From positions 248,001-312,000 of the forward strand of contig NZ_JAEACF010000001.1 of the NCBI RefSeq assembly GCF_016401385.1: a DNA stretch of 64,000 nt, written 5' to 3'. Below, piece after piece: positions 43,331-58,077 of the stretch. This DNA comes from Fictibacillus halophilus (lineage in GTDB: Bacteria; Bacillota; Bacilli; Bacillales; Fictibacillaceae). The notes beneath the pieces were generated by a model. The model worked only from the letters and a program-made list of their open reading frames with translations. It was not told the origin of the DNA and ran no database searches. A program made the translations under genes and the position numbers. How positions within the stretch are numbered: position 1 is the first letter of the stretch; each line of letters begins with the position of its first letter.

Positions 43331-43371
43331 AAAAAAGCTCGTCCAGCGGCTGACAAGCATGCTGGACGAGC
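43331..43371 (-). terminator. Strong hairpin, terminator-like on the minus strand
   Basis: GCTCGTCCAGC (43337-43347) pairs perfectly with GCTGGACGAGC (43361-43371) around a 13-base loop. On the minus strand it is followed by six T (43336-43331). It abuts the tandem repeat array, so something transcribed leftward through the array would stop here. Confidence 0.65.
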
Positions 43372-43466
43372 GCCATATGAAAAATACGAGCGCCATATGA
43401 AAAATACGAGCGCCATATGAAAAATACGAGCGCCATATGAAAAATACGAGCGCCATATGAAAAATG
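43367..43466. repeat. Tandem repeat, 5 copies of a 20-bp unit
   Basis: The unit CGAGCGCCATATGAAAAATA repeats from 43367, 43387, 43407, 43427 and 43447; only the last base of the fifth copy differs. Each unit has CATATG and GCGCCATATG, giving a weakly palindromic core. Because 20 is not a multiple of three the array has no steady protein frame, so the long minus-strand open frame that crosses it is an artefact. It lies between the nitroreductase and APH-family genes. Confidence 0.95.
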
Positions 43467-43625: not shown

Positions 43626-44735
43626 ATGAAAGAGACATTTGACTTGATTGATTATGCACTGCAAAAAAGCGGGTTAGAGGAACTTAAAGATCCGACTCAG
43701 GTTCAATATTTAGGTGAAGGAGCTTGGCATCTTGCTTATTTTGTTCAGCTGCGCACTGGGGATGCTGTGGTCGTACGTTTTCCGAAAACGGAGGCCTATG
43801 GAAGGAACGTTGAGTTTGATGAAGAAGCCATTCACTCAGAATATGCAGGGACTAGAGCATATTATGAGCTAGCTAATCAAGTTAAACCAGGAATCTGCCC
43901 TGCTTTTTTCAACTATCATGTAGAAAAAGACAGAACATTTACCGTTGAATCTTATGCGGGAAAGGCGATCAAGCTTGATCAACTAACGGCTGTAGAAGCG
44001 TTTCATATCGGAGCAGAACTTGGTGAGTTCTTTCGCAAGATGAATGCTGCACATCATGGCTTAAAAGGGTTCGGTTATCTCTCATGGAACGGAAAACATA
44101 TTGAAGGGAAATACCACTCAGATGTTTCAGAATCTATGAAGAAAGAAAACACTGATTACATAAATGATTTTAAGAATTTTATAGATACGTATGAGGGGTC
44201 GATTTCTTCATCAGCTTTAGTTGATCTTCAAGCCTGCATGGAAGATAGAGAGATCGAAAATCATACGGTTGTACTTACTAATCAAGATACATCTCCAGAG
44301 AATATATTGCTGCATTCAGATGGTACTGTCTGTTTGATCGATCCTGTACCAATCTTATATAGCGGAGATTCGCTCGCGGGGAATTTTCTTAATAATTACC
44401 GTACCTTGTTCCCAACATTCTTTAATGCACCGCGTTATGCGCGACATGAATTTGATCGATTTGAAGACCGTTTGAAAAGAATAGCTGATGGATTTTTAGA
44501 AGGTTATTCTAATGGAGATCTAGCTATAAAGCGTCGAGTGAAACAAGAAGAGTTTATTCAACTTACTGATCTAACTGTTCTTCATTGGCATCTGCTTCAG
44601 ACTGATGAATTAACCTCTGAACAGAAAATTCGTTACGGAGAAAGAGAAGCAATTGCCAATCGAATAACGGTACTTGTAAAAAAGATCGAAGAGTTTAAAT
44701 GGTTGGATGAAAAAAGTGGAACAAAATTAGCATAA
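43626..44735 (+). CDS. Aminoglycoside phosphotransferase (APH) family kinase
   Basis: A 369-residue protein-kinase-like fold enzyme. The Gly-rich start LGEGAWHLAYFV (about 29-40), an acidic residue in EEAIHSEYAGTRAYY, the catalytic loop TNQDTSPENILL (Asp near 220, in place of HxDxxxxN) and LIDPVPILYSGD (Mg-binding Asp) can be seen. The family phosphorylates small molecules such as drugs, sugars or choline. The substrate is unknown and drug resistance is not implied. AAAGAGGAAC precedes ATG 43626. Confidence 0.85.
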   Translation: MKETFDLIDYALQKSGLEELKDPTQVQYLGEGAWHLAYFVQLRTGDAVVVRFPKTEAYGRNVEFDEEAIHSEYAGTRAYYELANQVKPGICPAFFNYHVEKDRTFTVESYAGKAIKLDQLTAVEAFHIGAELGEFFRKMNAAHHGLKGFGYLSWNGKHIEGKYHSDVSESMKKENTDYINDFKNFIDTYEGSISSSALVDLQACMEDREIENHTVVLTNQDTSPENILLHSDGTVCLIDPVPILYSGDSLAGNFLNNYRTLFPTFFNAPRYARHEFDRFEDRLKRIADGFLEGYSNGDLAIKRRVKQEEFIQLTDLTVLHWHLLQTDELTSEQKIRYGEREAIANRITVLVKKIEEFKWLDEKSGTKLA

Positions 44736-44823: not shown

Positions 44824-44853
44824 TTGACTTTTTAAAACATCTTACTCTATAAT
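44824..44853 (+). promoter_or_regulatory. Sigma-A promoter of the methionine operon
   Basis: TTGACT (44824-44829), 18 bases, TATAAT (44848-44853). The predicted start lies about 50 bases before the S-box. Confidence 0.75.
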
Positions 44854-44911
44854 CCTATTCAAGAACAAAACAAACATCAGCACGTTAATGTGTTAAACAT
44901 AATTTGAATAT

Positions 44912-45070
44912 CTCTTATCCAGAGAGGCGGAGGGACTAGGCCCGATGAAGCCCGGCAACCAACAAACCACATTTGGTTTGGAAAGGTGCCAATTCCTACA
45001 GATCTTTTTTGATCTGAAAGATAAGAGGAGGACCAAAACCCTCTTCTTAGGAAGGGGGTTTTTCTTTTTT
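44912..45070 (+). promoter_or_regulatory. SAM-I (S-box) riboswitch with intrinsic terminator
   Basis: The aptamer runs 44912-45027. P1 is CTCTTATC (44912-44919) with GATAAGAG (45020-45027). Core conserved pieces are AGAGGCGGAGGGACTAGGCCC, GATGAAGCCCGGCAACC and AAAGGTGCCAATTCC. The terminator is AACCCTCTTC (45037-45046) with GAAGGGGGTT (45051-45060) and a T-tract. AAGAGG of P1 (45023-45028) can pair with CCTCTT (45040-45045) as an antiterminator. With SAM bound the operon is shut off; when methionine or SAM is low it is read. Confidence 0.95.
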
Positions 45071-45212
45071 CCCCTTATCATACTTCACGTACAAACATCA
45101 CTTAGTCACTTATTTCATTTTTAAAATCGAATATAGCAAAAGGGAAAAGCATTAATCTTTATCCCTAGTTTTCCTATAGATTTAATTTGGATAATAAGAA
45201 GGAGCGATTATA

Positions 45213-47003
45213 ATGACAAAATCTTTTGATGGATACGATATTGAAACATTGCTATTACATGGGGGGCAAGCGCCTGACCCAACGACAGGATCACGAGCAG
45301 TACCTGTCTACCAGACTACTTCCTATGTTTTTTCTGATACAGATCATGCGCAAAGCCTTTTCGCACTCGACGAGCCAGGAAATATCTACAGTCGAATCGG
45401 AAATCCAACGGTTGATGTTTTCGAGAAAAGGGTTGCTCTTCTAGAAGATGGGGTTGCAGCTGTAGCTACTTCTTCTGGAATGTCAGCAATCGCGCTTGCC
45501 GTTTTAAACATCGCACATGCAGGAGATGAAATTATTGCAGCTACGAATCTATACGGAGGAACTTACAACCTATTTTCTACTACTCTTCCGAAATACGGAA
45601 TTAACGTAAAGTTTGTAGATGCAGAGGATCCAGAGAATTTCAGAAAAGCGGTTACTCCAAACACGAAAGCATTTTTTGCTGAAACGATCGGTAACCCGAG
45701 TCTTAACGTATTAGATATTGAGGCAGTGGCAGATATTGCGCATGAGAACGGTGTACCTCTAATTATTGATAATACATTTGCAACGCCATATGTAACAAAA
45801 CCGATAAGCTTTGGAGCGGACATCGTAATCCATTCAGCAACAAAGTGGATCGGCGGACATGGAACAGCCATTGGCGGTGTTGTGGTAGACGGAGGACGCT
45901 TTAATTGGAACTCAGAGAAATATCCAGGATTCACTGAGCCAGATAACAGCTATAACGGATTAAGATACGCAAATGACTTTGGAACGTTAGCTTTTGCGAC
46001 TAAATTACGCGTACAGCTGTTAAGAGATTTTGGAGCATGCTTGAGTCCACACAATGCATTTCTTCTTTTACAAGGTTTAGAAACACTTCACTTACGAGTG
46101 GAAAAACATGCGAAAAACGCACAAGAAGTGGCTGAATATCTGGAAAAACATCCAGCGGTAGATTGGGTTTCATACCCTGGTCTTTCTTCGCACAGAAGTC
46201 ATGAGCTTGCTAAAAAATATTTAAGCAATGGTTTTGGTTCGATCGTAAACTTTGGAATCAAGGGTGGGCGTGATGCAGGTCGTAAGGTCATCAACAACAT
46301 TTCATTATGGTCACACGTTGCAAATGTTGGGGATGCAAAATCATTGATCATCCACCCTGCTTCTACCACTCATCAGCAGCTGAGCGGAGACGAATTAGTA
46401 GCAACTGGCGTAACAGAAGAACTTATTCGGTTATCGATTGGACTTGAATCCGTAAAAGATCTTACGAATGATCTTGATCGTGCGATACAAACGGCAACAG
46501 GGATCGGATCGGATAATACGGAGATCACGATTAATGATGAAGGTGTTATCCGCTGGGCATTGCAATCCTCACTATATAGAGCAGTAGAGAACGGTCAGGA
46601 AATTCAGCGTCCCAAAACACTAGCGATTGTTGGACTCAGTTCCAACCCAGCAAGACCTAGCCATAGATTAGCTAGAAAAATGCAGCGTCTTGGCTATAAA
46701 ATCGTTCCTGTTAATCCAAGAGAAACGGAAGTACTTGATGAAAAAGCATATCCAGATTTAAAATCCATTCCGTTTCCGATTGATGTCGTTCAAGTATTTA
46801 GAAGTCCAGAAGCAGCGATTGAGCTTGCAAAAGAAGCAGCGATCACACAGCCAAAAGTGTTCTGGCTACAAGAAGGTGTCATCTCCCCAGAAGCCGCAAG
46901 AATAGCGAAAGAAGCTGGAATTGATGTGGTGCATAACAGATGTACGTATAAAGAAGCACAACGACTAAGAGGTACCATTTCAACGTATGCGTGTGAACTT
47001 TAA
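45213..47003 (+). CDS. metY: O-acetylhomoserine sulfhydrylase (MetY) fused to a CoA-binding domain
   Basis: A 596-residue fusion. Residues 1 to about 430 are a PLP-dependent Cys/Met-metabolism enzyme: YSRIGNPT, SSGMSAIALAV, and the PLP lysine Lys211 in HSATKWIGGHG. They catalyse O-acetylhomoserine plus sulfide to homocysteine and acetate. After a linker, residues about 465-596 form a CoA-binding Rossmann domain (LAIVGLSSNPARPSHRLARK, YKIVPVNPRETEVL, QEGVISPEAARIAKEAG). Ordinary MetY is about 430 residues, so the tail is an addition. It is the first gene of the S-box operon. The role of the CoA domain is unknown. Confidence 0.93.
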   Translation: MTKSFDGYDIETLLLHGGQAPDPTTGSRAVPVYQTTSYVFSDTDHAQSLFALDEPGNIYSRIGNPTVDVFEKRVALLEDGVAAVATSSGMSAIALAVLNIAHAGDEIIAATNLYGGTYNLFSTTLPKYGINVKFVDAEDPENFRKAVTPNTKAFFAETIGNPSLNVLDIEAVADIAHENGVPLIIDNTFATPYVTKPISFGADIVIHSATKWIGGHGTAIGGVVVDGGRFNWNSEKYPGFTEPDNSYNGLRYANDFGTLAFATKLRVQLLRDFGACLSPHNAFLLLQGLETLHLRVEKHAKNAQEVAEYLEKHPAVDWVSYPGLSSHRSHELAKKYLSNGFGSIVNFGIKGGRDAGRKVINNISLWSHVANVGDAKSLIIHPASTTHQQLSGDELVATGVTEELIRLSIGLESVKDLTNDLDRAIQTATGIGSDNTEITINDEGVIRWALQSSLYRAVENGQEIQRPKTLAIVGLSSNPARPSHRLARKMQRLGYKIVPVNPRETEVLDEKAYPDLKSIPFPIDVVQVFRSPEAAIELAKEAAITQPKVFWLQEGVISPEAARIAKEAGIDVVHNRCTYKEAQRLRGTISTYACEL

Positions 47004-47096
47004 AAATAGAATTGCTGATGGAGCACAAGTCAACGACTTTCAAAAGTAACTCACAAAAATAATCATACAAAAAGGGATAAACGTGGAGGGAAATAC

Positions 47097-48086
47097 ATGA
47101 AGAAGATTTGGCAGAAAGCAGCACTGGCTTTAAGCATAGCTGGCGCTTTAGTGTTAGCGGGCTGTTCTAGCAGTGCTAAAGAAGGTGAAAAGCCAGAGAA
47201 GATCAGACTTGATTATGCCTTTTACTCTCCAACAAGTCTGGCACTTAAAAAGTTTGGCTGGGCAGAAGAGGCGTTTAAAAAAGAAGGCATAGAAGTAGAA
47301 TGGGTTCAAAGTCAAGGAAGTAATAAAGCGCTTGAGTTTTTAAATTCAGATAGCGTTGATTTTGGATCGACAGCTGGTGCGGCAGCTTTAATCGCAAAAG
47401 ACAAAGGTGCTCCAATTGAGTCGGTTTATATCTATTCTCAGCCAGAATGGACAGCGCTTGTCGGTGCAGATGGTTCAACGATTAAAGATGTAAAGGATTT
47501 GAAAGGCAAAAAAGTAGCTGCAACGTTTGGTACGGATCCGCACATCTTTTTACTACGAGCACTTGCAGATGCTGGCCTTTCTGCAAAGGATGTACAAATT
47601 GTAAATCTACAACATGCAGATGGGGCGAACGCTCTACTAAAAGGGCAAGTGGATGCTTGGGCTGGTTTAGATCCACATATGGCTAGAACAGAAGTTGAAT
47701 CTGGTGCAACGTATATTTACCGCAATCCAGATTTTAATACGTATGGCACGTTGAATGTACGCTCTGAATTTGCTAAGAACCATCCGAAGCAAGTAGAACA
47801 AGTGATTGAACTATACGAAAAAGCAAGAAAATGGACGATTGAAAATCCAGAGGAAGCAGCAAAACTTTTATCTGAAGAAGCGGGGATTAAAGAAGATGTC
47901 GCAAAAAAACAACTCCAACGAAACAACTTCGAGGAACCTGTTCCAGGATCACAGCATGAAAAAGCTATATCGGCTGCAGGCGAAGTTCTCCAAAAAGAAG
48001 AGATTGTCAAAAAAGATACTAACATCGAAGATCTTGTGAAAAAATTGATCAATCCGAAGTTCGCAGAAAAAGTGATCAACCAATAA
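47097..48086 (+). CDS. ABC transporter substrate-binding lipoprotein (sulfonate/nitrate type)
   Basis: A 329-residue lipoprotein with signal peptide and lipobox LVLAGC (Cys near 23). The mature part is of the SsuA/TauA/NMT1 type (LDYAFYSPTSLALKKFGW, EWVQSQGSNKALEFLNSDSVDFG, LKGKKVAATFGTDPHIFLLRAL). It delivers a small solute, perhaps an alkanesulfonate or another sulfur compound, to the permease next door. No SsuD-like monooxygenase is present. It is the second gene of the S-box operon, which argues for a methionine- or sulfur-related solute. Confidence 0.9.
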   Translation: MKKIWQKAALALSIAGALVLAGCSSSAKEGEKPEKIRLDYAFYSPTSLALKKFGWAEEAFKKEGIEVEWVQSQGSNKALEFLNSDSVDFGSTAGAAALIAKDKGAPIESVYIYSQPEWTALVGADGSTIKDVKDLKGKKVAATFGTDPHIFLLRALADAGLSAKDVQIVNLQHADGANALLKGQVDAWAGLDPHMARTEVESGATYIYRNPDFNTYGTLNVRSEFAKNHPKQVEQVIELYEKARKWTIENPEEAAKLLSEEAGIKEDVAKKQLQRNNFEEPVPGSQHEKAISAAGEVLQKEEIVKKDTNIEDLVKKLINPKFAEKVINQ

Positions 48087-48109
48087 ATGAGAGAGAGGAG
48101 GAAGTGTCG

Positions 48110-48955
48110 ATGATTTCTGAAACACATAAGTGGAAAGTAGCACAGAGAGCTTCCCCTCAAAAGCTCTCTTCATCGAAAGGTTTATTTCAATTAGGTAAAG
48201 GGATTTTGGTAGGTTCGATCCTGCCTATCATTCTATTAGTTGCGTGGGAAATCGCCGCTAGAATGGGACTTCTGGCTGCGCACCTGTTGCCTGCACCAAC
48301 CATTATTTTAGAGAAAATTATTAGTATGTATCAAGATGGATCACTGTTCGGCCATATCTCTATTACACTGACCCGGGTATTCTTAGGATTTACGATTGGA
48401 ACGGGAGCAGCGGTCGTAATTGGCGCGATCGTTGGTTATGCAAAAACAGCAGAAAGACTATTAGATCCGTTGTTTCAAGCCATTCGTTCTATACCTTCTC
48501 TAGCTTGGGTACCGCTCTTTATTCTTTGGATGGGGATCGGCGAACCTTCTAAGATTTCGCTAATCGCAGTTGGTGTATTCTTTCCTGTCTATTTAAATAT
48601 TGTTGCTGGAATTCAAGGTGTTGACCGCAAGCTCATCGAGGTCGGAAGAATTTATCAGTTAACACCCTACCAGCTAACAAAACGCATTATTTTGCCTGCT
48701 GCATTGCCATCGTTTATTACGGGTATGCGTAGCGGTCTCGGGCTTGGATGGATGTTTGTAGTAGCGGCAGAGCTTATGGGAGCAAGTGAAGGACTAGGCT
48801 ATCTGCTAGTAGTAGGTCAGAACACGTACTCACCAGACACCGTCATTGCGAGCATTTTGCTATTTGCAGCTTTAGGTAAAATAACGGACGCAGTACTAAA
48901 ATGGGTCGAACATCGCTCACTAAAATGGCAAGACAGTATAACTAACCAAGGATAG
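48110..48955 (+). CDS. ABC transporter permease (SsuC/TauC type)
   Basis: A 281-residue permease with about six membrane helices, the first near residue 25. The EAA-loop region is GVDRKLIEVGRIYQLTPYQL followed by PAALPSFITGMRSGLGLGWMF, typical of SsuC/TauC. ATG 48110 lies eight bases after GGAGG; an in-frame GTG at 48104 is only two bases away from it and is rejected. It is 23 bases downstream of the binding-protein gene. Confidence 0.92.
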   Translation: MISETHKWKVAQRASPQKLSSSKGLFQLGKGILVGSILPIILLVAWEIAARMGLLAAHLLPAPTIILEKIISMYQDGSLFGHISITLTRVFLGFTIGTGAAVVIGAIVGYAKTAERLLDPLFQAIRSIPSLAWVPLFILWMGIGEPSKISLIAVGVFFPVYLNIVAGIQGVDRKLIEVGRIYQLTPYQLTKRIILPAALPSFITGMRSGLGLGWMFVVAAELMGASEGLGYLLVVGQNTYSPDTVIASILLFAALGKITDAVLKWVEHRSLKWQDSITNQG

Positions 48956-48970
48956 AAGGAGGGGAAACAG

Positions 48971-49702
48971 ATGCTGAAAGTGAATCGTTTAGAACGAACA
49001 TTTAATCAACGTACGGCTGGATTTCAAGACATTAATCTTTCTGTGAAGGAAGGTGAGGTCATTGGGATTCTAGGCACGAGCGGCTGTGGGAAAAGCACAT
49101 TGCTCCGCGTGTTATCAGGTCTCGATCAACAATATGAAGGAACGATTTCAATAGAGAATGGATCGAACAACCAGATCGGTATGATGTTTCAAGAACCTCG
49201 CCTTCTGCCATGGTTGTCTGTAAAGAAGAACATTTCATTTGGTTTGGAAAAAGAAGAGAGACACAGTGATAAATATAAAACGTATTTGGACCTGGTAGGA
49301 TTAACGGATTTTGAAAACCATTACCCGAAAGACTTATCAGGTGGGATGGCACAGCGAACAGCAATAGCACGAGCGCTTATCACTGAACCTGAAATCCTCT
49401 TGTTAGATGAACCGTTCAGTGCGTTAGATGCTTTTACAAAAATGCAGCTTCAAGACCTTCTGTTATCCATATGGCAAAAAAAGAAAACAACGATGATTTT
49501 AGTCACTCACGATATTGATGAGGCGCTCTATCTCTGTGATCGAATTCTCATCTTAAAAGGTCAGCCAGGTGAATTGTACAGCGAAATTGAGGTAGATAAA
49601 GAAAAACCAAGAACCCGAGGAGACGCTTACCTCTCTAAACTAAAAGCACATATCTTAAACTTATTAAACGTTGAAAAGAAAGCAGCAGGTGAACATCAAT
49701 GA
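48971..49702 (+). CDS. ABC transporter ATP-binding protein (SsuB/TauB type)
   Basis: A 243-residue nucleotide-binding subunit: Walker A GTSGCGKST, Q-loop FQEPRLLPWL, signature LSGGMAQR, Walker B ILLLDEPFSALD and the switch His in LVTHD. It drives the transporter formed with the two preceding genes. AGGAGGGGAAAC precedes ATG 48971. Its stop overlaps the start of the ligase gene by four bases. Confidence 0.95.
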   Translation: MLKVNRLERTFNQRTAGFQDINLSVKEGEVIGILGTSGCGKSTLLRVLSGLDQQYEGTISIENGSNNQIGMMFQEPRLLPWLSVKKNISFGLEKEERHSDKYKTYLDLVGLTDFENHYPKDLSGGMAQRTAIARALITEPEILLLDEPFSALDAFTKMQLQDLLLSIWQKKKTTMILVTHDIDEALYLCDRILILKGQPGELYSEIEVDKEKPRTRGDAYLSKLKAHILNLLNVEKKAAGEHQ

Positions 49703-51390
49703 CAAAACTAGTCACCATTGATCCAGTCGGAGGAACACATAATATTTCAGAAGACCAAAGGGATACATCCTTTTCTTGGGAAACTTTTACCGAAAGATTC
49801 AATAGGCGAAGTGATGGTAAGACGAATATGGCGTATGAATGTGTAGACCGTCATGTTGAAGAAGGAAGAGGTGAGAAAACAGCTCTTCACTATATTGACG
49901 ACTCACAGGATATTAAAATTCGTTATAACGAGTTAAAGAAAACGACTGACCAGTGGGCGGCGGTTTTAAAAAAGCATGGTGTAAAGAGCGGAGATTTTGT
50001 TTTTGTCTTCTTGCCAAAACACCATCATTGTCATATCGCAATGTTAGCTGCTATTAAGCTAGGAGCAATTGTGGGTCCATTATTTGAAGCATTCATGTCG
50101 GATGCGGTAAGAGACCGGATCAGTGACTGTGAAGGAACGTTCTTAATCACAGATGAAGAGTTGTATAAGCGAGTACCAAGAGAAGATCTGCCAAGCCTTC
50201 ATACGGTTTTTTTAACAGATGGTGAAGGAGAAAACGGAGAAATCTCGCTTCAAAAAGAATTGAAGAGTGTAGAGAACACAGAGAGTCAGATTGAGTGGGT
50301 AGATCCTGAACATGGTCTAAACATCCACTACACATCCGGTTCTACTGGAAAACCTAAAGGAATCATCCATGCTCATCGAGCGATGGTACAGCAATATCTT
50401 ACAGGTAGATGGGTGTTAGATATTCAAGAAGATGATGTGTATTGGTGCACTGCTCATCCTGGATGGGTGACAGGAACGGTGTATGGCGTTTTTGCACCAT
50501 TATTAAACGGAGCCACCATTGTTGTTCACGGTGGACGATTTAAAGCAGAAACTTGGTATGAAACCTTACAAAAAACAGGTGTAACAGTATGGTATAGTGC
50601 ACCAACTGCATTTCGGATGTTGATGGCAAAAGGAAATCAGCTTCCAGAACGCTATGACCTTTCAAAGCTCCGACACATTTTGAGTGTAGGCGAACCATTG
50701 AATCCAGAAGTCATCTATTGGGGTCAGAACGTGCTTGGAAAAAGAATTCATGATACGTGGTGGATGACTGAAACTGGCGCTCAGCTTATTGTAAACCTTC
50801 CAACAGAGCCGATAAAGCCAGGTTCAATGGGAAAAGCATTTCCCGGCATAACCGCAACCGTATTGGATGAAGACGGAAATGAACTGCCTCCGTATGCCGT
50901 AGGTCATTTAGCGATCAAGGCACCATGGCCAGCAATCATGAGAGAAGTTTGGCAGAATCCTGAAAAATATGATTCGTATTTTAGCTGGGGCGAGTGGTAT
51001 GTGTCTGGAGATCTTGCCATAAAAGACGAAGATGATTATATCTTTTTCCAAGGACGTTCAGATGACATGATTAATTCCTCCGGAGAACGAATCGGACCAT
51101 TTGAAGTCGAAAGCAAACTGATCGAACACAAAGCAGTTGCCGAAGCTGGAGTAATCGGCAAGCCTGATCCGATTCGCGGAGAGATCGTAAAAGCCTTTAT
51201 CGTTTTAAAAGATGGATTTAGAGAGAGTAAAGAGCTTTTGGATGAAATCCGAATCTTTGTTAGAGGTGAATTAGCTGCACATGCTGCACCTCGCGAGATC
51301 GAAATCGTAGAAGAGCTTCCAAAAACAAAGATCAGCGGAAAAATATTGCGAAGAGAGCTGAAAGCCCGTGAGTTACAAAAACTTGCTTGA
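49699..51390 (+). CDS. Acetyl-CoA synthetase-like acyl-CoA ligase
   Basis: A 563-residue ANL-superfamily ligase of the AcsA type. It has the P-loop YTSGSTGKPKG (near residue 212), DTWWMTETG (near 353), WYVSGDLA, and the C-terminal lysine motif PKTKISGKILRR. It likely makes acetyl-CoA from acetate, ATP and CoA. In this operon it would reuse the acetate released by MetY and refill the acetyl-CoA needed by MetX. The neighbouring genes overlap on both sides (ATGA with the ABC gene, 23 bases with metX), so it is a tight part of the unit. The substrate is inferred from family and context. Confidence 0.88.
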   Translation: MTKLVTIDPVGGTHNISEDQRDTSFSWETFTERFNRRSDGKTNMAYECVDRHVEEGRGEKTALHYIDDSQDIKIRYNELKKTTDQWAAVLKKHGVKSGDFVFVFLPKHHHCHIAMLAAIKLGAIVGPLFEAFMSDAVRDRISDCEGTFLITDEELYKRVPREDLPSLHTVFLTDGEGENGEISLQKELKSVENTESQIEWVDPEHGLNIHYTSGSTGKPKGIIHAHRAMVQQYLTGRWVLDIQEDDVYWCTAHPGWVTGTVYGVFAPLLNGATIVVHGGRFKAETWYETLQKTGVTVWYSAPTAFRMLMAKGNQLPERYDLSKLRHILSVGEPLNPEVIYWGQNVLGKRIHDTWWMTETGAQLIVNLPTEPIKPGSMGKAFPGITATVLDEDGNELPPYAVGHLAIKAPWPAIMREVWQNPEKYDSYFSWGEWYVSGDLAIKDEDDYIFFQGRSDDMINSSGERIGPFEVESKLIEHKAVAEAGVIGKPDPIRGEIVKAFIVLKDGFRESKELLDEIRIFVRGELAAHAAPREIEIVEELPKTKISGKILRRELKARELQKLA

Positions 51391-52465
51391 AACTTCGAGA
51401 AAGATAGGGAAGGTTAGAATCGGTGACTTTGCTCTAGAGTCAGGAAAAGTAATTCCGAACGCCGAATTAGCTTTTGAGAAGACAGGTAACGCTAAAGGCC
51501 CTGTTGTCTTACTCTGCCACGCGTTAACTGGAAATCAGTATGCATACGGATCAGAACAAGATCCAGGATGGTGGCGTGGATTAGTTGGTCCTGATCAATA
51601 TATTGACACAAACCAGTTTCAAGTAATCACATTTAATGTGCTCGGAGGATGCAGCGGTTCAACTGGTCCAGCAAAGACGAATCCTGAAACCGGAGAACAC
51701 TATGGAAAGTCATTTCCTTTTGTAACGGTAAGAGATATGGTTCGCGCGCAGCGACAGGCACTTAGCATTTTAGGGATTCCTAGACTTCTTGCCGTCATGG
51801 GAGGTTCACTCGGCGGTATGCAGGCACTTGAGTGGGCTGTGCAGTTTCCGTATTTCTTAGAAAAAGTGTTTATCTTTGCGGCAACTCCTTTTTTAAGTGA
51901 TTATGGCGTCGCTTTTAATAGACTTGCCCTTCACGCGATAGAAAGTGATCCTGTGTATAAGAGTGGCCATTATAAAAGCGATGAGAAATTAGCAGGATTG
52001 GAGATCGCACGTATGGCGGGGTTATTAACATACCGTCAGCCTAAGCTATTTAATGAGAGATTTAATAGAGAGATCAAAGAAAAAAATGACGAAGGTAAAC
52101 CGTTCTTTCAAGTAGATTCCTATCTTACGTATCAGGGGGAAAAGTTGACCAAAAGGTTTGATGTGGATAGCTATGTATCTCTTCTATATGCCATGAACGC
52201 TTTCGATATTGGCGATAAGCTTGGTGGCTGGGAGCGGGCAGCATCACAAATTCAAGCTGAAGTACATGCTTTTGGCTATGAAGGAGACCTTCTATATCCT
52301 CCTGAGGTGATTGAGAATTTTGTAAAACATACTAGATTCGGAACCTACTATTCTATAGAAACAGACTTTGGTCATGATGGATTTTTAGTTGAATTTGAAA
52401 AATGGGGACCACATGTAAGAGAAGCATTGAGACAAGAAGGGAGGCTGCAATATGGCACCTATTAA
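51368..52465 (+). CDS. metX: Homoserine O-acetyltransferase (MetX)
   Basis: A 365-residue alpha/beta hydrolase acyltransferase. NQYAYGSEQDPGWWRGLVGP, LGGCSGSTGP and the nucleophile Ser147 in GGSLGGMQ are characteristic, and GHDGFLVE near the end carries the catalytic His. It moves the acetyl group from acetyl-CoA to homoserine. GTG 51368 lies inside the end of the ligase gene (23-base overlap) and its ribosome site is weak, so translation is probably coupled to the upstream gene. Confidence 0.95.
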   Translation: MSYKNLLETSRKIGKVRIGDFALESGKVIPNAELAFEKTGNAKGPVVLLCHALTGNQYAYGSEQDPGWWRGLVGPDQYIDTNQFQVITFNVLGGCSGSTGPAKTNPETGEHYGKSFPFVTVRDMVRAQRQALSILGIPRLLAVMGGSLGGMQALEWAVQFPYFLEKVFIFAATPFLSDYGVAFNRLALHAIESDPVYKSGHYKSDEKLAGLEIARMAGLLTYRQPKLFNERFNREIKEKNDEGKPFFQVDSYLTYQGEKLTKRFDVDSYVSLLYAMNAFDIGDKLGGWERAASQIQAEVHAFGYEGDLLYPPEVIENFVKHTRFGTYYSIETDFGHDGFLVEFEKWGPHVREALRQEGRLQYGTY

Positions 52466-53723
52466 AGCGGCGCTGCTAGGTTTTGGAACCGTTGGTCAAG
52501 GTGTATATGAAGCACTGAAAACGCATAGAGAACAACTTCAAGCTGTGCTGGGTAAAGAGGTTGTGATCGAAGGGATATTAGTTAAAGATGGAAGAAAAAA
52601 ACGTGAAGTGGATGAACATGTTTTAATAACTACTGATTTTGATGAGATCCTCAATATTGATGGACTAGAGGTCGTGTTTGAAGCAATCGTGGGAGAAGAG
52701 CCAGGTTTTACTTATTTGAGTCGTGCACTTGATAAAGGCTGTCATGTGATCACCGCAAACAAAGTCATGTTTGCGAGACATGGAAGAACATTGCTCGATA
52801 AAGCGGAAACACGTGATCGTTTTGTTGGATTCGAAGCGACAACAGCAGGTGGAACACCAATCATTCGGAGCATCTCTCAGCTTCTTCAAGTGAACGAAAT
52901 TCATGCAGTTGAAGCTATACTTAATGGCACATCCAACTACATTTTAACGAATATGAGGGAAAAAGGTCTTCCCTTTCATGAGGTGTTGAAATCTGCGCAA
53001 GAACTAGGTTATGCAGAGGCTGACCCGACAAATGATATAGAAGGTCATGATGCATTTTATAAGTTAATGATTTTAAGTGAGTTGTCGTTTGGTGAGACGC
53101 CAAAATGGGAGGATGTAGAACGCAAAGGAATAACAGAAGTAACGAGAGAGCAAATCTCGGTATTCAAAGACTGGGGATATAAGGTGAAGCATTTGGCGCG
53201 GATCCGCCGTGACCGCGACCAATTCATTTCATCAGTAAAACCCGTTTTGGTTGACGCAGATCACCCATTATATGGTGTGGAAGACGTTCAAAATGCCATT
53301 ACGATCGATACGAGTCTCGCAGGAAAAGTTACGGTTCAAGGAGCAGGAGCAGGAAAACTTCCAACAGCAAGCGCCATGGTGGAAGACTTGACTTATGTGC
53401 TGCAGCCTCATTCTGTAGTAAGAAAGAAAAAAGTAGAACAGCATGCTGCTAATAGTAGCGAAGACACAAACTTCACATCAGTTGGAGAGTATGTAGTCAT
53501 AGGTTCATCTGTAAGCTTTCATGGAACGGATGACGTACAAATTTTAAAACAAGAAATAAAAGAAGAGCTTGTTTTTCTTCTGATCGAGTGTCAAGTGAGT
53601 ACGGCAACTCTATTAAAAGAAAACCCTGAACTGGCTGTTTATGAGGTGGCGGGAAAGGAGAGGAAAAAAGCGGTTAAGCTAGAACAGAAGGATACATTAC
53701 TTAAAAAAGTAATAAATCTATAG
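52452..53723 (+). CDS. hom: Homoserine dehydrogenase
   Basis: A 423-residue enzyme. N-terminal NAD(P) fold (LLGFGTVGQGVYEAL), HVITANKV, then the homoserine catalytic domain with ILNGTSNYILTNM and GYAEADPTNDIEGHDA. The C-terminal part (about 350-423) does not carry a clear complete ACT domain, although EYVVIGSSVSF-to-end may be a remnant. It reduces aspartate semialdehyde to homoserine. GGGAGG precedes the ATG and the gene overlaps metX by 14 bases. A dedicated copy in the methionine operon is likely separate from the main threonine-pathway hom. Confidence 0.93.
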   Translation: MAPIKAALLGFGTVGQGVYEALKTHREQLQAVLGKEVVIEGILVKDGRKKREVDEHVLITTDFDEILNIDGLEVVFEAIVGEEPGFTYLSRALDKGCHVITANKVMFARHGRTLLDKAETRDRFVGFEATTAGGTPIIRSISQLLQVNEIHAVEAILNGTSNYILTNMREKGLPFHEVLKSAQELGYAEADPTNDIEGHDAFYKLMILSELSFGETPKWEDVERKGITEVTREQISVFKDWGYKVKHLARIRRDRDQFISSVKPVLVDADHPLYGVEDVQNAITIDTSLAGKVTVQGAGAGKLPTASAMVEDLTYVLQPHSVVRKKKVEQHAANSSEDTNFTSVGEYVVIGSSVSFHGTDDVQILKQEIKEELVFLLIECQVSTATLLKENPELAVYEVAGKERKKAVKLEQKDTLLKKVINL

Positions 53724-53756
53724 AATGAAAAAAGCTCCATCAAAGTGGTTATCCGA

Positions 53757-53787
53757 ACATTGCAGAGTGGCTCCTGCGATGTTTTTT
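53757..53787 (+). terminator. Intrinsic terminator of the methionine operon
   Basis: ACATTGCAG (53757-53765) pairs with CTGCGATGT (53774-53782) with one G-T, followed by six T. Confidence 0.85.
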
Positions 53788-53903: not shown

Positions 53904-56900
53904 TTACTCTTCTTCATAATCCTCGTTTATTACCGTGAATTCATCGATCAACTCTCCATCAGAAGAAGTAGTCCTAAAGGTGATTTTGTCTTTATCTACT
54001 TTTGCGTGCATGGACACGGCAATGTTATCCATGTTTACAAACTCAAACTTCTCATCAGCTACAGCGTCATAATGCTTGTTACCTGTCGTTCCGGCTACTA
54101 CATATATCGTGCCATTCGTATCTTCTTTTCCGTCTTTCAGTTTCTTTGTTCTGCCATAAGAATGATCGTGGCCCGAGAAAACAAGATCGATTCCAAGTTC
54201 GTCTGCTACAGGAGGAATCTTTTCTTTCATAATCTCGTTACCGCCGAACGGGTTGGTGTAATATGGCGGTTTATGAGTCACAAGAATTTTCCAAGGTTTA
54301 TCCGAATTCTTCATATCTTGTTTCAACCACTCTAGCTGTTGATTTAATATATCAGCATCAGATGTGTATCCAAGTACAGCAATATGCATGTTGTTGTAAT
54401 CCACTGAATAGGTTCCGCCTTTATCTACATCCGGTCCATTCTTCGGTAAGTTTAAGATTGCTTTTGCCAGCGATCCGTCTGCATCACCCATGTACTCATG
54501 GTTCCCTAAGGCCGTAACTAAGTCAGTTGCGCGAATGTTGCTGTACTGACTCAGCGCTGCTAACGAATCATCCCATTGTTTAAACTTAGAAGATTCGTCG
54601 ATCAAATCACCAACGTGAATCATAAATGATAAATCTTTATTGTTGAGATCTCCAAGAATTTTATTAAAGTGAGTAAGGTCGGAAGGTGATTGTGTATCCC
54701 CTAGTACCGCAAACTCAAAGCTTTGCATCCTTTTTAATGTTGTGAATTCCATGAACTCTGACCAATGATCTCCATCACCAACACGGTATACATAAGTAGT
54801 GTCTTGCTGTAATTTCTGCAGCTCTACTTTATTAACACGCACTATACCGTTTTTCTTGATGTCCAATTCTCCTGAAAACAATTGGTTACTTCCACTTGCT
54901 TTTTGAGTCTTTAATGACGCCATGCCTTTTTGCTCATAGTCTTTCTTTTTTGCATACTGCACAACTGCTGATTGATCACCTGCAAGAGGGCTCGACATCC
55001 AAGTAAACCCCTTCGTCTGATAAGGGTTACCTGTTGGAGTCGATATCATATTCTTAAATTCTGTTTCGGTCGCAAGTGCTGGGTATGTTTGTGTGTTGAT
55101 CTTAAAGGAATACTTGCCATCCTTAACTGCATACAGCGTAATCTTTTTCACTTCACCTGTAAAAGAATCCACCGACAAAGTTCCGTTGAGATCTGTTTTT
55201 CCAAAGGAGACGGGATCGTTCTCACCATCGATATGTGCAAACAGTTCAGCATCTACAACGGGCTCATCTTTATTATCTTTTACCGAAAGCTTTGTTGGTT
55301 TTCCTAATAAAATTGGCTCATGTGTCAAACTGATTGCTGCTTTTACTGGGACACGAGCTGGATTCATGGAAAACGTAGAAATAAAGTTTTCCGCTTTCGG
55401 CTGACTAAAAATCATACTTCCTTCTAACATTTCATACTTCATTTCGCTGCCTTCCTTTGTGGATGCAGGAATATCTAACTGTATCGTTGCAACATCTGCC
55501 ATTGAAGATGTTTCACCGTTGTTGATTAGATTAAGAGTTAAGATTCCGGTTTCTGAATCGTAATTTGAAGTACTGTCCTGAAAAGGTTCAGAAAACACAA
55601 CATTTTTAACCGGAAATCCTTTATCCATCTGCATACGAATAGCAGCAGAAGTAATCTCATCCGTATGTGTCATTTTCACTCCGAGATTAAAGGTATCACC
55701 TAAATATGCTTCTTCTTGTGACTTTACAAGTTCAATCTTTGCTGATCCTGTATTTACCGAAAAGTAGCTTGTATGAACAGCTTGATTTCCGAATTTATCG
55801 GGAACAATCAACGTTACATTGTGTGTTCCATCTGCCCAGCGATAACCACTTAATGAAACGGATCCGTCCATGTCATAAGAAAAGTGTCCTTCTGCTTCTG
55901 CATAATTCTTACCATCTACGAGTATACGGATTTTGTCCCAATCAATACCAGTTTTATAAGGATCTTCTTCATATTCGTTCACTCTTGCCGTGATGGTTAC
56001 ATCATTTTTTGTAAAAATCTTGTCGTCCGTGCTAACAGATTGAATGACAGGAGGGTAGAGGTCATCCACCTTTTCACCGTAAACGGCACGAATGTTATCA
56101 ACATAGATGGATCCTTTTGTCATAGGGCCAGTGATTCCAGATTTCGTAGACATCAAGCGAATCGTTTGTGTTCCTGATAACTTGAACGGACCTGTAAACG
56201 ATGATGGAATCTCCGCCTCGATGTATTTCCAGCCTGTCCAGTCGATTCCCGGCTTTTCACCTGTTAGATTGATCGTCTGATTTTTTCCGTTACCATCTAC
56301 AATCAGCATTCTTAGCCAATATCCTTGTGCCTCTGGCGTTCCATATACCCACATGCCAAAGCTTGAAGGATTACCTTCAACAGGAGTATTTAATCCAGGT
56401 CCTGCATAAACACCGAGCGTTGTTCCTGTTTGCGCACTTGAAAAATCAAAATCCAGCTTTAATGACTGATTGTCAAAGCGTACTTGATCTGGGAATTCGG
56501 AAAGTGATAAGGTTCCTTTTTCTCCACGTCCTGCAGTGGACGTTTTCCAGCTGCCTAATGCATCCTCAAAGTTATGAAGTACGATAGGAAGCTGTCCAAC
56601 AGATACGTTTAAATTTGCTTCAAGAGGTGTGCCTTTTAATCGAGCCGTGATGGTTCCTTTCACATTTTGATCACCCGTATGAAGAATTCCTTTTTCATCA
56701 ATGGTTCCCATACCATCTGGAATATCAAATGCAATATCATGAAGGTTCCACTTCACATTTCTTTTTTGAAATCTTGCTACGAGATCTATCTCTTTTTTAC
56801 TGTTTTTAGCTACAGTTAATTCAGAAGAACCAAAGAATAATTCATTCGGTGTCTCGATTTCAATGATGCTTTTTCCAACTTCTATACCATTATGTTTTAA

Positions 56901-58010
56901 CAGAATATGAAATTGACCCGTTTTTCCACTTGAGACAAAAGTTCCGTCTTCATTAATGGATCCAAACGAAGGATCAGATACTTCCCATGCTAACCCTGAT
57001 TGTGGGAGTGGTGCAGAAGCTTTAGACTTGTCCATCCCTTTTGCGTCAAAATCAATCGTTGAGCCAGGAGTGAACGATTTGTCATAAGGTTCGATGTGGG
57101 CAGAATGAAAGACATGATCAGAAGGCTCTTTTGTAACAACAAGCCAAGAGTTGGCTACACTTCTTTCATTTCTGTCAGAGGGCTGGTTGTCCACTTCTAT
57201 TACATCTTCACCAAGTTTGCGGGTAGTAAAAGTAGAGGAGCCGCCTCCGTCAAGATTGAGAGCGTGAACAGCGCCATGATCAATCATTAATTGAGCTAAG
57301 TCTTTCATTGAAATACCTGATGAATAGGGTTCTTGTCTGCCGTCAATGACAACAAAGAAAACATCACCGTCTTCTTTAATACCAACTGCTGTACGTGGCT
57401 CTTTATCCTGACCGGTTTGAGGAGTTTGATAGATTTGGCTGTTTCTGACTAGGATCGCGTTACCGCCGAGAGCTTCTTGAAGATCGGTTTTCATTGATTC
57501 GAATTCTGTAGAATTACCGATAACAGCGTTTCCGTCCTTCTTTATCCCAAAAAAGTTCCATGATCGCCCGCTTGTCCCTTTAATAGCGCGCCCGTCTTTA
57601 TAAACCACGCCATGTGGTTCCCCGGTAGCCATGTTATAAAAATCAGCGTTTACTGCTGCAACTACTTGGTGATTCTCTCCATTGGCCGCATTCGCTTGTG
57701 CTCTTACAGGCTGTAGGCTAAATGCATCTTCATCATTAGGTGTTCCGGCTTCAATGGCAACATTCGGATTATGTACATCTACTTCAACTACAAAACTCTC
57801 AATCTTTTTACCTTCTTTACTTTCAAAGCTGTATTGCTTTTCTTCTACACCAGGCGCAATATTTGCGCGGTACTCATTAATGGGGGTTTGTACAACTTCA
57901 GAAACGAGATCAAATTCACCTAATGCAGACGTTCTAAAGGGTGATAATGTGCTGCTCACTAAAATGAGGGCAAGGGCAGACGGCAACAGCTTTTTCCAAT
58001 AAAATTTCAT
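53904..58010 (-). CDS. Secreted phosphodiester glycosidase (NAGPA) - metallophosphoesterase fusion
   Basis: A 1368-residue exported protein. The signal peptide begins MKFYWKKLLPSALALILV and is cut near TSALG. Residues about 95-300 are a phosphodiester glycosidase (NAGPA) domain (VVAAVNADFYNMATGEPHG, RTAVGIKEDGDVFFVVIDGR, ALNLDGGGSSTF). Several Ig-like, carbohydrate-binding-like and cohesin-like beta domains follow to about 950, then a purple-acid-phosphatase-like N-terminal domain and a metallophosphoesterase domain with LGDTQ, VGDLIDE, LGNHEYMG, THKPPY and SGHDHSYGR (about 1070-1368). It may process sugar-phosphate polymers such as teichoic acids. ATG 58010 follows CAGGAGG. Confidence 0.9.
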   Translation of the reverse strand: MKFYWKKLLPSALALILVSSTLSPFRTSALGEFDLVSEVVQTPINEYRANIAPGVEEKQYSFESKEGKKIESFVVEVDVHNPNVAIEAGTPNDEDAFSLQPVRAQANAANGENHQVVAAVNADFYNMATGEPHGVVYKDGRAIKGTSGRSWNFFGIKKDGNAVIGNSTEFESMKTDLQEALGGNAILVRNSQIYQTPQTGQDKEPRTAVGIKEDGDVFFVVIDGRQEPYSSGISMKDLAQLMIDHGAVHALNLDGGGSSTFTTRKLGEDVIEVDNQPSDRNERSVANSWLVVTKEPSDHVFHSAHIEPYDKSFTPGSTIDFDAKGMDKSKASAPLPQSGLAWEVSDPSFGSINEDGTFVSSGKTGQFHILLKHNGIEVGKSIIEIETPNELFFGSSELTVAKNSKKEIDLVARFQKRNVKWNLHDIAFDIPDGMGTIDEKGILHTGDQNVKGTITARLKGTPLEANLNVSVGQLPIVLHNFEDALGSWKTSTAGRGEKGTLSLSEFPDQVRFDNQSLKLDFDFSSAQTGTTLGVYAGPGLNTPVEGNPSSFGMWVYGTPEAQGYWLRMLIVDGNGKNQTINLTGEKPGIDWTGWKYIEAEIPSSFTGPFKLSGTQTIRLMSTKSGITGPMTKGSIYVDNIRAVYGEKVDDLYPPVIQSVSTDDKIFTKNDVTITARVNEYEEDPYKTGIDWDKIRILVDGKNYAEAEGHFSYDMDGSVSLSGYRWADGTHNVTLIVPDKFGNQAVHTSYFSVNTGSAKIELVKSQEEAYLGDTFNLGVKMTHTDEITSAAIRMQMDKGFPVKNVVFSEPFQDSTSNYDSETGILTLNLINNGETSSMADVATIQLDIPASTKEGSEMKYEMLEGSMIFSQPKAENFISTFSMNPARVPVKAAISLTHEPILLGKPTKLSVKDNKDEPVVDAELFAHIDGENDPVSFGKTDLNGTLSVDSFTGEVKKITLYAVKDGKYSFKINTQTYPALATETEFKNMISTPTGNPYQTKGFTWMSSPLAGDQSAVVQYAKKKDYEQKGMASLKTQKASGSNQLFSGELDIKKNGIVRVNKVELQKLQQDTTYVYRVGDGDHWSEFMEFTTLKRMQSFEFAVLGDTQSPSDLTHFNKILGDLNNKDLSFMIHVGDLIDESSKFKQWDDSLAALSQYSNIRATDLVTALGNHEYMGDADGSLAKAILNLPKNGPDVDKGGTYSVDYNNMHIAVLGYTSDADILNQQLEWLKQDMKNSDKPWKILVTHKPPYYTNPFGGNEIMKEKIPPVADELGIDLVFSGHDHSYGRTKKLKDGKEDTNGTIYVVAGTTGNKHYDAVADEKFEFVNMDNIAVSMHAKVDKDKITFRTTSSDGELIDEFTVINEDYEEE

Positions 58011-58077
58011 CTTTTCCTCCTGTAAAAATAATTTTTGATACATGAGTTTCGGGCTACAGGTTTACAATAATGGAAAA

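Follow-up and report, generated by a model that had tools for sequence, protein, structure and literature searches.

An operon at positions 44,824 to 53,787 of a 64,000-nucleotide stretch of the genome of Fictibacillus halophilus, described as a soil bacterium (contig NZ_JAEACF010000001.1, positions 248,001 to 312,000; the whole stretch is called the window), contains a gene for an AcsA-like acetate:coenzyme A (CoA) ligase among the methionine genes metY, metX and hom and the genes of an SsuABC-like transporter. For each homocysteine formed, MetY and MetX together release one acetate and use one acetyl-CoA, and the acetate of this O-acetylhomoserine route is usually seen as a mere by-product. 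Our preferred reading of the comparative sequence data, held at a little better than even confidence, is that the operon encodes an acetate:CoA ligase dedicated to this route, probably shielded from the AcsA-acetylating protein AcuA, which would return the acetate of MetY to MetX.

The operon is transcribed from the forward (+) strand, and its gene families were assigned by Pfam and NCBIfam profile searches. Its leader contains an S-adenosylmethionine (SAM)-I, or S-box, riboswitch aptamer (RF00162, positions 44,912 to 45,027) with 94.3 bits, above the gathering score of 44.4, and the terminator of the expression platform, a 12-pair stem followed by a T-run (45,035 to 45,062), lies 3' of the aptamer. 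The genes that follow encode MetY, an O-acetylhomoserine sulfhydrylase with a C-terminal CoA-binding domain (45,213 to 47,003; PF01053), an SsuA-like substrate-binding lipoprotein (47,097 to 48,086), an SsuC-like permease (48,104 to 48,955; PF00528), an SsuB-like ATPase (48,971 to 49,702; PF00005), the AcsA-like ligase (49,699 to 51,390), the homoserine O-acetyltransferase MetX with a GTG start (51,368 to 52,465) and the homoserine dehydrogenase Hom (52,452 to 53,723; NF004976, 363 bits, cutoff 205). SsuA reached its subfamily cutoff (TIGR01728, 246 versus 163.5 bits), whereas SsuC (188 versus 347) and SsuB (210 versus 395) fell short of the equivalog level; MetX reached NF001209 (362 versus 331) and not TIGR01392 (340 versus 500). 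This gene content under an S-box is the one given in a preliminary description made from the sequence alone. The overlaps reported there, namely, 4 bases (ATGA) between ssuB and the ligase gene at 49,699, 23 between the ligase gene and metX at 51,368, and 14 between metX and hom at 52,452, are exact, and the remaining intergenic gaps measure 93, 17 and 15 bases. As an argument for fixed stoichiometry the overlaps are weak; they indicate translational coupling at most, and the gene order around the ligase varies in relatives. New in the present analysis are the MetY-CoA fusion, a second, canonical acsA beside acuA, the AcuA-related residue changes and the strong link between the ligase and SsuACB.

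The ligase scored 808 bits against the acetate--CoA ligase AcsA family NF003313 (cutoff 729) and did not reach TIGR02188 (502 versus 725). The acetate pocket is conserved as V257, T258, V330 and W355, residues whose roles we take to be those of the pocket of S. enterica Acs. We infer an acetate:CoA ligase, with acetate-dependent acetyl-CoA formation as its predicted activity. In a sample of 397 related genomes, the ligase was found in 69, representing 27 genera; the pocket reads VTVW in 68 of these and ITVW (V257I) in one. The tryptophan is thus kept in all 69, and a ligase for longer-chain acids is disfavored.

A search of the 3.92-Mb genome of F. halophilus returned seven synthetase matches, the ligase itself included. 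The nearest other one, 56% identical, is canonical AcsA, whose gene sits elsewhere and adjoins acuA (full-length match to B. subtilis AcuA, 329 bits to 9g7f_C). Two strong ligase matches occur in 17 of 18 genomes of the genus and one in G007, and in the rest of the family each of 16 genomes gave one match, scoring as canonical AcsA. In a quick tree of the 100 rows left of 109 matched sequences after duplicate removal, with labels set by the better-matching query and not by genomic context, one branch (SH-like approximate likelihood ratio test, 100) split 69 operon-type from 31 AcsA-type rows; long branches were seen for L060, L096, L108 and L052. The operon ligase is a paralogue clade separate from canonical AcsA.

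The two groups are divided by 22 alignment columns at >85%, among which K107 for R (codon at 50,017 to 50,019) and H253 for D (50,455 to 50,457) stand out, together with one extra residue before SGK. Aligned with B. subtilis AcsA, K107 takes the place of R108 and H253 that of D255, both reported AcuA contacts, and the lengthened acetylation motif PX5GK (51,319 to 51,342) carries K548, the counterpart of K549. With duplicates removed, K107/H253/PX5GK was present in 69/69 ligase genomes and R/D/PX4GK in 38/38 AcsA genes (37 genomes). A set of named genomes, partly overlapping those of this comparison, gave the same division, with the first form in 34/34 ligase loci versus the other form in 47/47 AcsA-type genes (46 loci). 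In that set the AcuA gene adjoins 34 of the 46 AcsA-type loci and none of the 34 ligase loci. Borderline matches of 744 to 752 bits (G279, G243, G306, G164, the second copy of G230, G367 and G142) were canonical AcsA with R/D/PX4GK. The ligase genomes initially numbered 72; removal of six that have a borderline copy alone left 66, and G051, G185 and G228, whose lower-scoring ligases were found at MetY loci, brought the number to 69, a count that may miss further ligases below the threshold.

Three marks of AcuA-regulated AcsA, the PX4GK spacing, the R108/D255 pair and the acuA neighbor, are accordingly without match in the ligase. The solved protein nearest to it in sequence, B. subtilis AcsA (PDB 9g79/9g7f; 739 bits), shares the acetate pocket, the catalytic lysine and the length; the operon ligase differs in having K for R108, H for D255 and one more residue in the acetylation motif, and in lying in a methionine operon under a SAM riboswitch and not beside acuA. 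In the cryo-electron microscopy report on the AcsA-AcuA complex (PMC11910552), R108 and D255 of AcsA form hydrogen bonds with the main chain of the AcuA C-terminus, weaker contacts are made to A303, F283 and R282, and the K549 loop of AcsA goes into the AcuA active site. In a second report the AcsA family has PX4GK as its acetylation motif, and the six residues before the lysine were necessary and not sufficient for the acetylation of MenE by AcuA (PMC11619455). Judged by its residue changes, the operon ligase is probably insulated from AcuA binding and acetylation.

Several observations weigh against escape from AcuA as the meaning of these changes. R108 is not universal among acetate ligases: the distant ligase 8rpk has M at this position. 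Because 8rpk does have the D and a PX4GK motif, H253 and PX5GK look derived. The complex was broken by a change of AcsA K549 or by deletion of the AcuA tail, and mutations elsewhere in the interface did not affect it significantly (PMC11910552), so the loss of two contacts need not end AcuA binding. As residues lining the CoA site, K107 and H253 may instead reflect altered catalysis. It is possible, if on balance not what we expect, that the K/H/PX5GK changes are unrelated to AcuA and tune CoA binding or a docking contact, for which the MetY CoA domain is one candidate partner; this reading would be compatible with acetate recycling. The tolerance of the interface to mutation, the overlap of the AcuA tail with the CoA site of AcsA described in the same report (PMC11910552) and the co-occurrence of ligase and fusion all fit such tuning; against it, eight ligase genomes without an intact MetY-CoA fusion show identical changes, and the inserted residue sits in the loop bearing the acetylated lysine.

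MetY reached the subfamily TIGR01326 (670 versus 495 bits) and not the equivalog NF006096 (702 versus 726). It shares its catalytic domain with the O-acetylhomoserine sulfhydrylases of this subfamily (T. maritima, 7kb0) and differs in its extra length, which is due to a C-terminal CoA_binding_2 domain (residues 468 to 581, positions 46,614 to 46,955; PF13380, 129 bits, cutoff 22.8). By sequence the domain belongs to PF13380 and is a putative CoA binder. Foldseek with the fusion gave solely MetY-type chains among the 50 matches listed, with 368 to 429 residues versus 596 here. The PDB relatives of the domain, 1iuk, 2duw and 2d59, match over 119 to 124 query residues and are free-standing single-domain proteins, whereas the domain is fused to MetY in the operon. 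Residues 430 to 596 retrieved 304 relatives, and all of the 120 matches listed are MetY with a CoA domain (477 to 636 residues); in an alignment of 32 fused proteins the CoA domain has many invariant columns. A structure model of the fusion had block mean predicted local distance difference test scores of 76 to 95 across residues 461 to 570 and a poor whole-chain mean of 67; a model of the ligase scored 81. At L106, L197 and L179 (Bacillus sp. NTK071, Paenisporosarcina sp. OV554), MetY and the CoA domain occupy two adjacent open frames, through a frameshift or a true separation. L109:4461-6212 and L110:4845-6605 encode another kind of MetY, whose CoA_binding_2 domain has diverged and is only weakly matched (about 51 bits).

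Ligase and fusion co-occur closely. Both were present in 61 of the 397 genomes, the ligase only in 8, the fusion only in 4 and neither in 324 (phi coefficient, 0.89); counted by genus, the figures are 24, 3, 2 and 106. Shared ancestry inflates the P values of all co-occurrence tests, and the three ligases found via MetY loci favor the association slightly (58/8/7/324 without them). A further step, which we regard as rather doubtful, would join the MetY-CoA fusion and the AcuA-insulated ligase in one acetate/CoA recycling module, in which the CoA domain gates MetY by the CoA:acetyl-CoA ratio or passes CoA to the ligase and the acetyl cycle is closed apart from general acetate control.

MetY, SsuACB and the ligase stand together in 52 of the 69 ligase genomes, 41 by gene map, including the present locus and G157 with a split MetY, and 11 Fictibacillus by coordinates alone. 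The MetY-ligase-MetX order expected from the preliminary description was not general: outside the genus, where 40 MetY-SsuACB-ligase loci were mapped, just 4 have metX as the next gene 3' of the ligase gene. A SAM riboswitch was found 5' of the ligase in 26 of 27 scanned loci beyond this one (8/8, 10/11 and 8/8 in three scans). The proposal of the preliminary description that the ligase recycles acetate for MetY and MetX is supported by the enzyme family and its unchanged pocket, by the tie to MetY or to a SAM riboswitch in many genera and by the retention of the ligase with MetY where the transporter is missing, and is not supported by the position of metX.

Other features of the distribution speak against a ligase dedicated to MetY. 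A MetY-like match (E ≤ 1e-150) is present in 346 of the 397 genomes and the ligase in just 69, so a dedicated ligase is not generally needed. In 14 of the 69, SsuACB and the ligase occur without an adjoining MetY; in five of these a distant pyridoxal phosphate enzyme of the cysteine/methionine type (33 to 36%) is found upstream. The operon at L084 showed no SAM riboswitch above the gathering score. L084 and L085 belong to one genus and have the same MetY-SsuACB-ligase operon, L084 being the one of the two scanned, and another regulator may stand in for the riboswitch in this genus.

The link to the transporter is nearly as tight as that to the fusion (66 genomes with both, 3 with the ligase only, 15 with the transporter only and 313 with neither; phi, 0.86). 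The main rival explanation, which we consider unlikely, is that the ligase acts on a compound imported by SsuACB or on its derivative, such as a sulfur-bearing short acid, in sulfur scavenging, and accompanies MetY since both serve methionine supply. It would account for the transporter in 66 of 69 ligase genomes and for the position of the ligase 3' of ssuB in the mapped loci having the transporter, the 14 genomes with MetY elsewhere included. At L090:4038-7863, the ligase follows a SAM riboswitch, SfnG (dimethylsulfone monooxygenase, 565 bits, cutoff 383) and a flavin mononucleotide (FMN) reductase, beside a MetX-MetY-CoA pair, and a role for an imported compound could explain this arrangement. 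The unchanged acetate pocket speaks against such a substrate. In transporter-positive genomes, ligase and fusion remain linked (58 both, 8 ligase only, 1 fusion only, 14 neither); the link of the ligase to the transporter likewise persists in fusion-positive (58/3/1/3) and fusion-negative genomes (8/0/14/310). The 15 genomes with the transporter and without this ligase also tell against this rival, seven of them, from one genus, having MetY-MetX-SsuACB without CoA domain. Of the others, L092 has fused MetY-SsuACB-MetX-Hom, three have nearby monooxygenase-like genes (by eye) and the rest are without such neighbors.

Conversely, the ligase is kept where no SsuA orthologue was found, in ligase genomes G084, G375 and G247 and, by whole-genome search, in the named genomes of Salimicrobium, Siminovitchia and Salinicoccus, which have MetY-ligase without SsuACB, and of B. 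timonensis (best identity to SsuA in these searches, 27%). MetY-ligase without transporter was also mapped at L065, and at least four genera keep the ligase behind a SAM riboswitch with no transporter. A MetY gene was present in 10/10 named genomes checked, four fused, five unfused (69 to 73%) and one a full-length 59% match. The ligase as an obligate partner of the transporter was rejected in its strict form, each occurring without the other, and the looser link stays a rival to acetate recycling.

That the ligase is a redundant second AcsA, duplicated by chance into the operon and adding to general acetate assimilation, is suggested by the 56% identity and the identical pocket. We judge it very unlikely in view of the changes fixed across the clade, the presence of the ligase in 27 genera and the riboswitch control kept where the gene stands alone (L102).

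The acetate cycle proposed from these data would run as follows. At low SAM, the riboswitch would permit transcription of the whole operon; Hom would supply homoserine, MetX would acetylate it with acetyl-CoA, and MetY would form homocysteine and release acetate by putting sulfide (or a thiol) in place of the acetyl group. With adenosine triphosphate (ATP) and CoA, the ligase would convert this acetate to acetyl-CoA for MetX, and the cycle closed in this way would consume two ATP equivalents. Canonical AcsA would be unreliable for this purpose, since AcuA binds it and acetylates it using acetyl-CoA. The operon ligase probably stays active while AcsA is shut off, because it is changed at two AcuA contacts and in the spacing of its acetylation motif. 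The probable role of the MetY CoA domain is to sense CoA or acetyl-CoA and match sulfhydrylation to the CoA pool, and SsuACB probably brings an organosulfur source for the same pathway.

A sigma-70-like promoter (TTGACT-18-TATAAT, positions 44,824 to 44,853, + strand, 11 of 12 consensus matches) and a terminator-like hairpin found by site search at the operon end (53,755 to 53,784, + strand) bracket the span given in the preliminary description. Promoter-like sites in the region were not above shuffled sequences (16 observed versus 18.2), terminator-like sites numbered 11 versus 7.2 in shuffles, and the overall fold of the stretch with the riboswitch terminator was no better than that of shuffles (z, -0.30). 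The family match of Hom ends at residue 365 of 423 and no ACT domain was seen in the Pfam search; its feedback control may differ from the usual. Just 5' of the operon, positions 43,626 to 44,735 encode a 369-residue protein without Pfam or NCBIfam match, and five perfect copies of a 20-base unit occupy positions 43,366 to 43,465. On the minus strand, positions 53,904 to 58,043 encode a 1,379-residue protein with phosphodiester glycosidase and metallophosphatase domains. The F. halophilus genome has 14 SAM riboswitches. The genes behind them (L011, L016, L009, L012, L010 and L015) include those for MtnW, for a MetN-like ATPase, for another MetY, which is unfused and encoded divergently from cysH, and for an NtaA/DmoA-type FMN monooxygenase, encoded divergently from an acyl-CoA dehydrogenase-like gene (by eye; no NCBIfam match at 1e-60). 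These genes suggest that SAM governs the scavenging of organosulfur in this genome.

Every part of the operon belongs to a known family. Searches of open-access papers showed no description of the operon combination, of the ligase clade or of the MetY-CoA fusion; a prior mention in the earlier survey Rodionov 2004, cited in PMC3766115, is possible. The operon shares its riboswitch class with the S-box methionine regulon of Bacillales, in which SAM riboswitches regulate the metabolism and transport genes of cysteine and methionine; it differs in its ligase, acetyl-CoA synthetase having no occurrence in the main text of the regulon paper (PMC3766115). According to the title of an engineering study, acetate supplementation raised O-acetylhomoserine production, and its strains include some with plasmid-borne acs genes, B. 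subtilis acsA among them (PMC8922893).

If the proposed cycle is true, the operon would be a natural case of a central enzyme that was duplicated and had its posttranslational brake removed for one pathway. The pair of ligase and AcsA paralogues would offer a direct test of the target choice of AcuA, and the MetY-CoA fusion would put PF13380 in a concrete pathway context.

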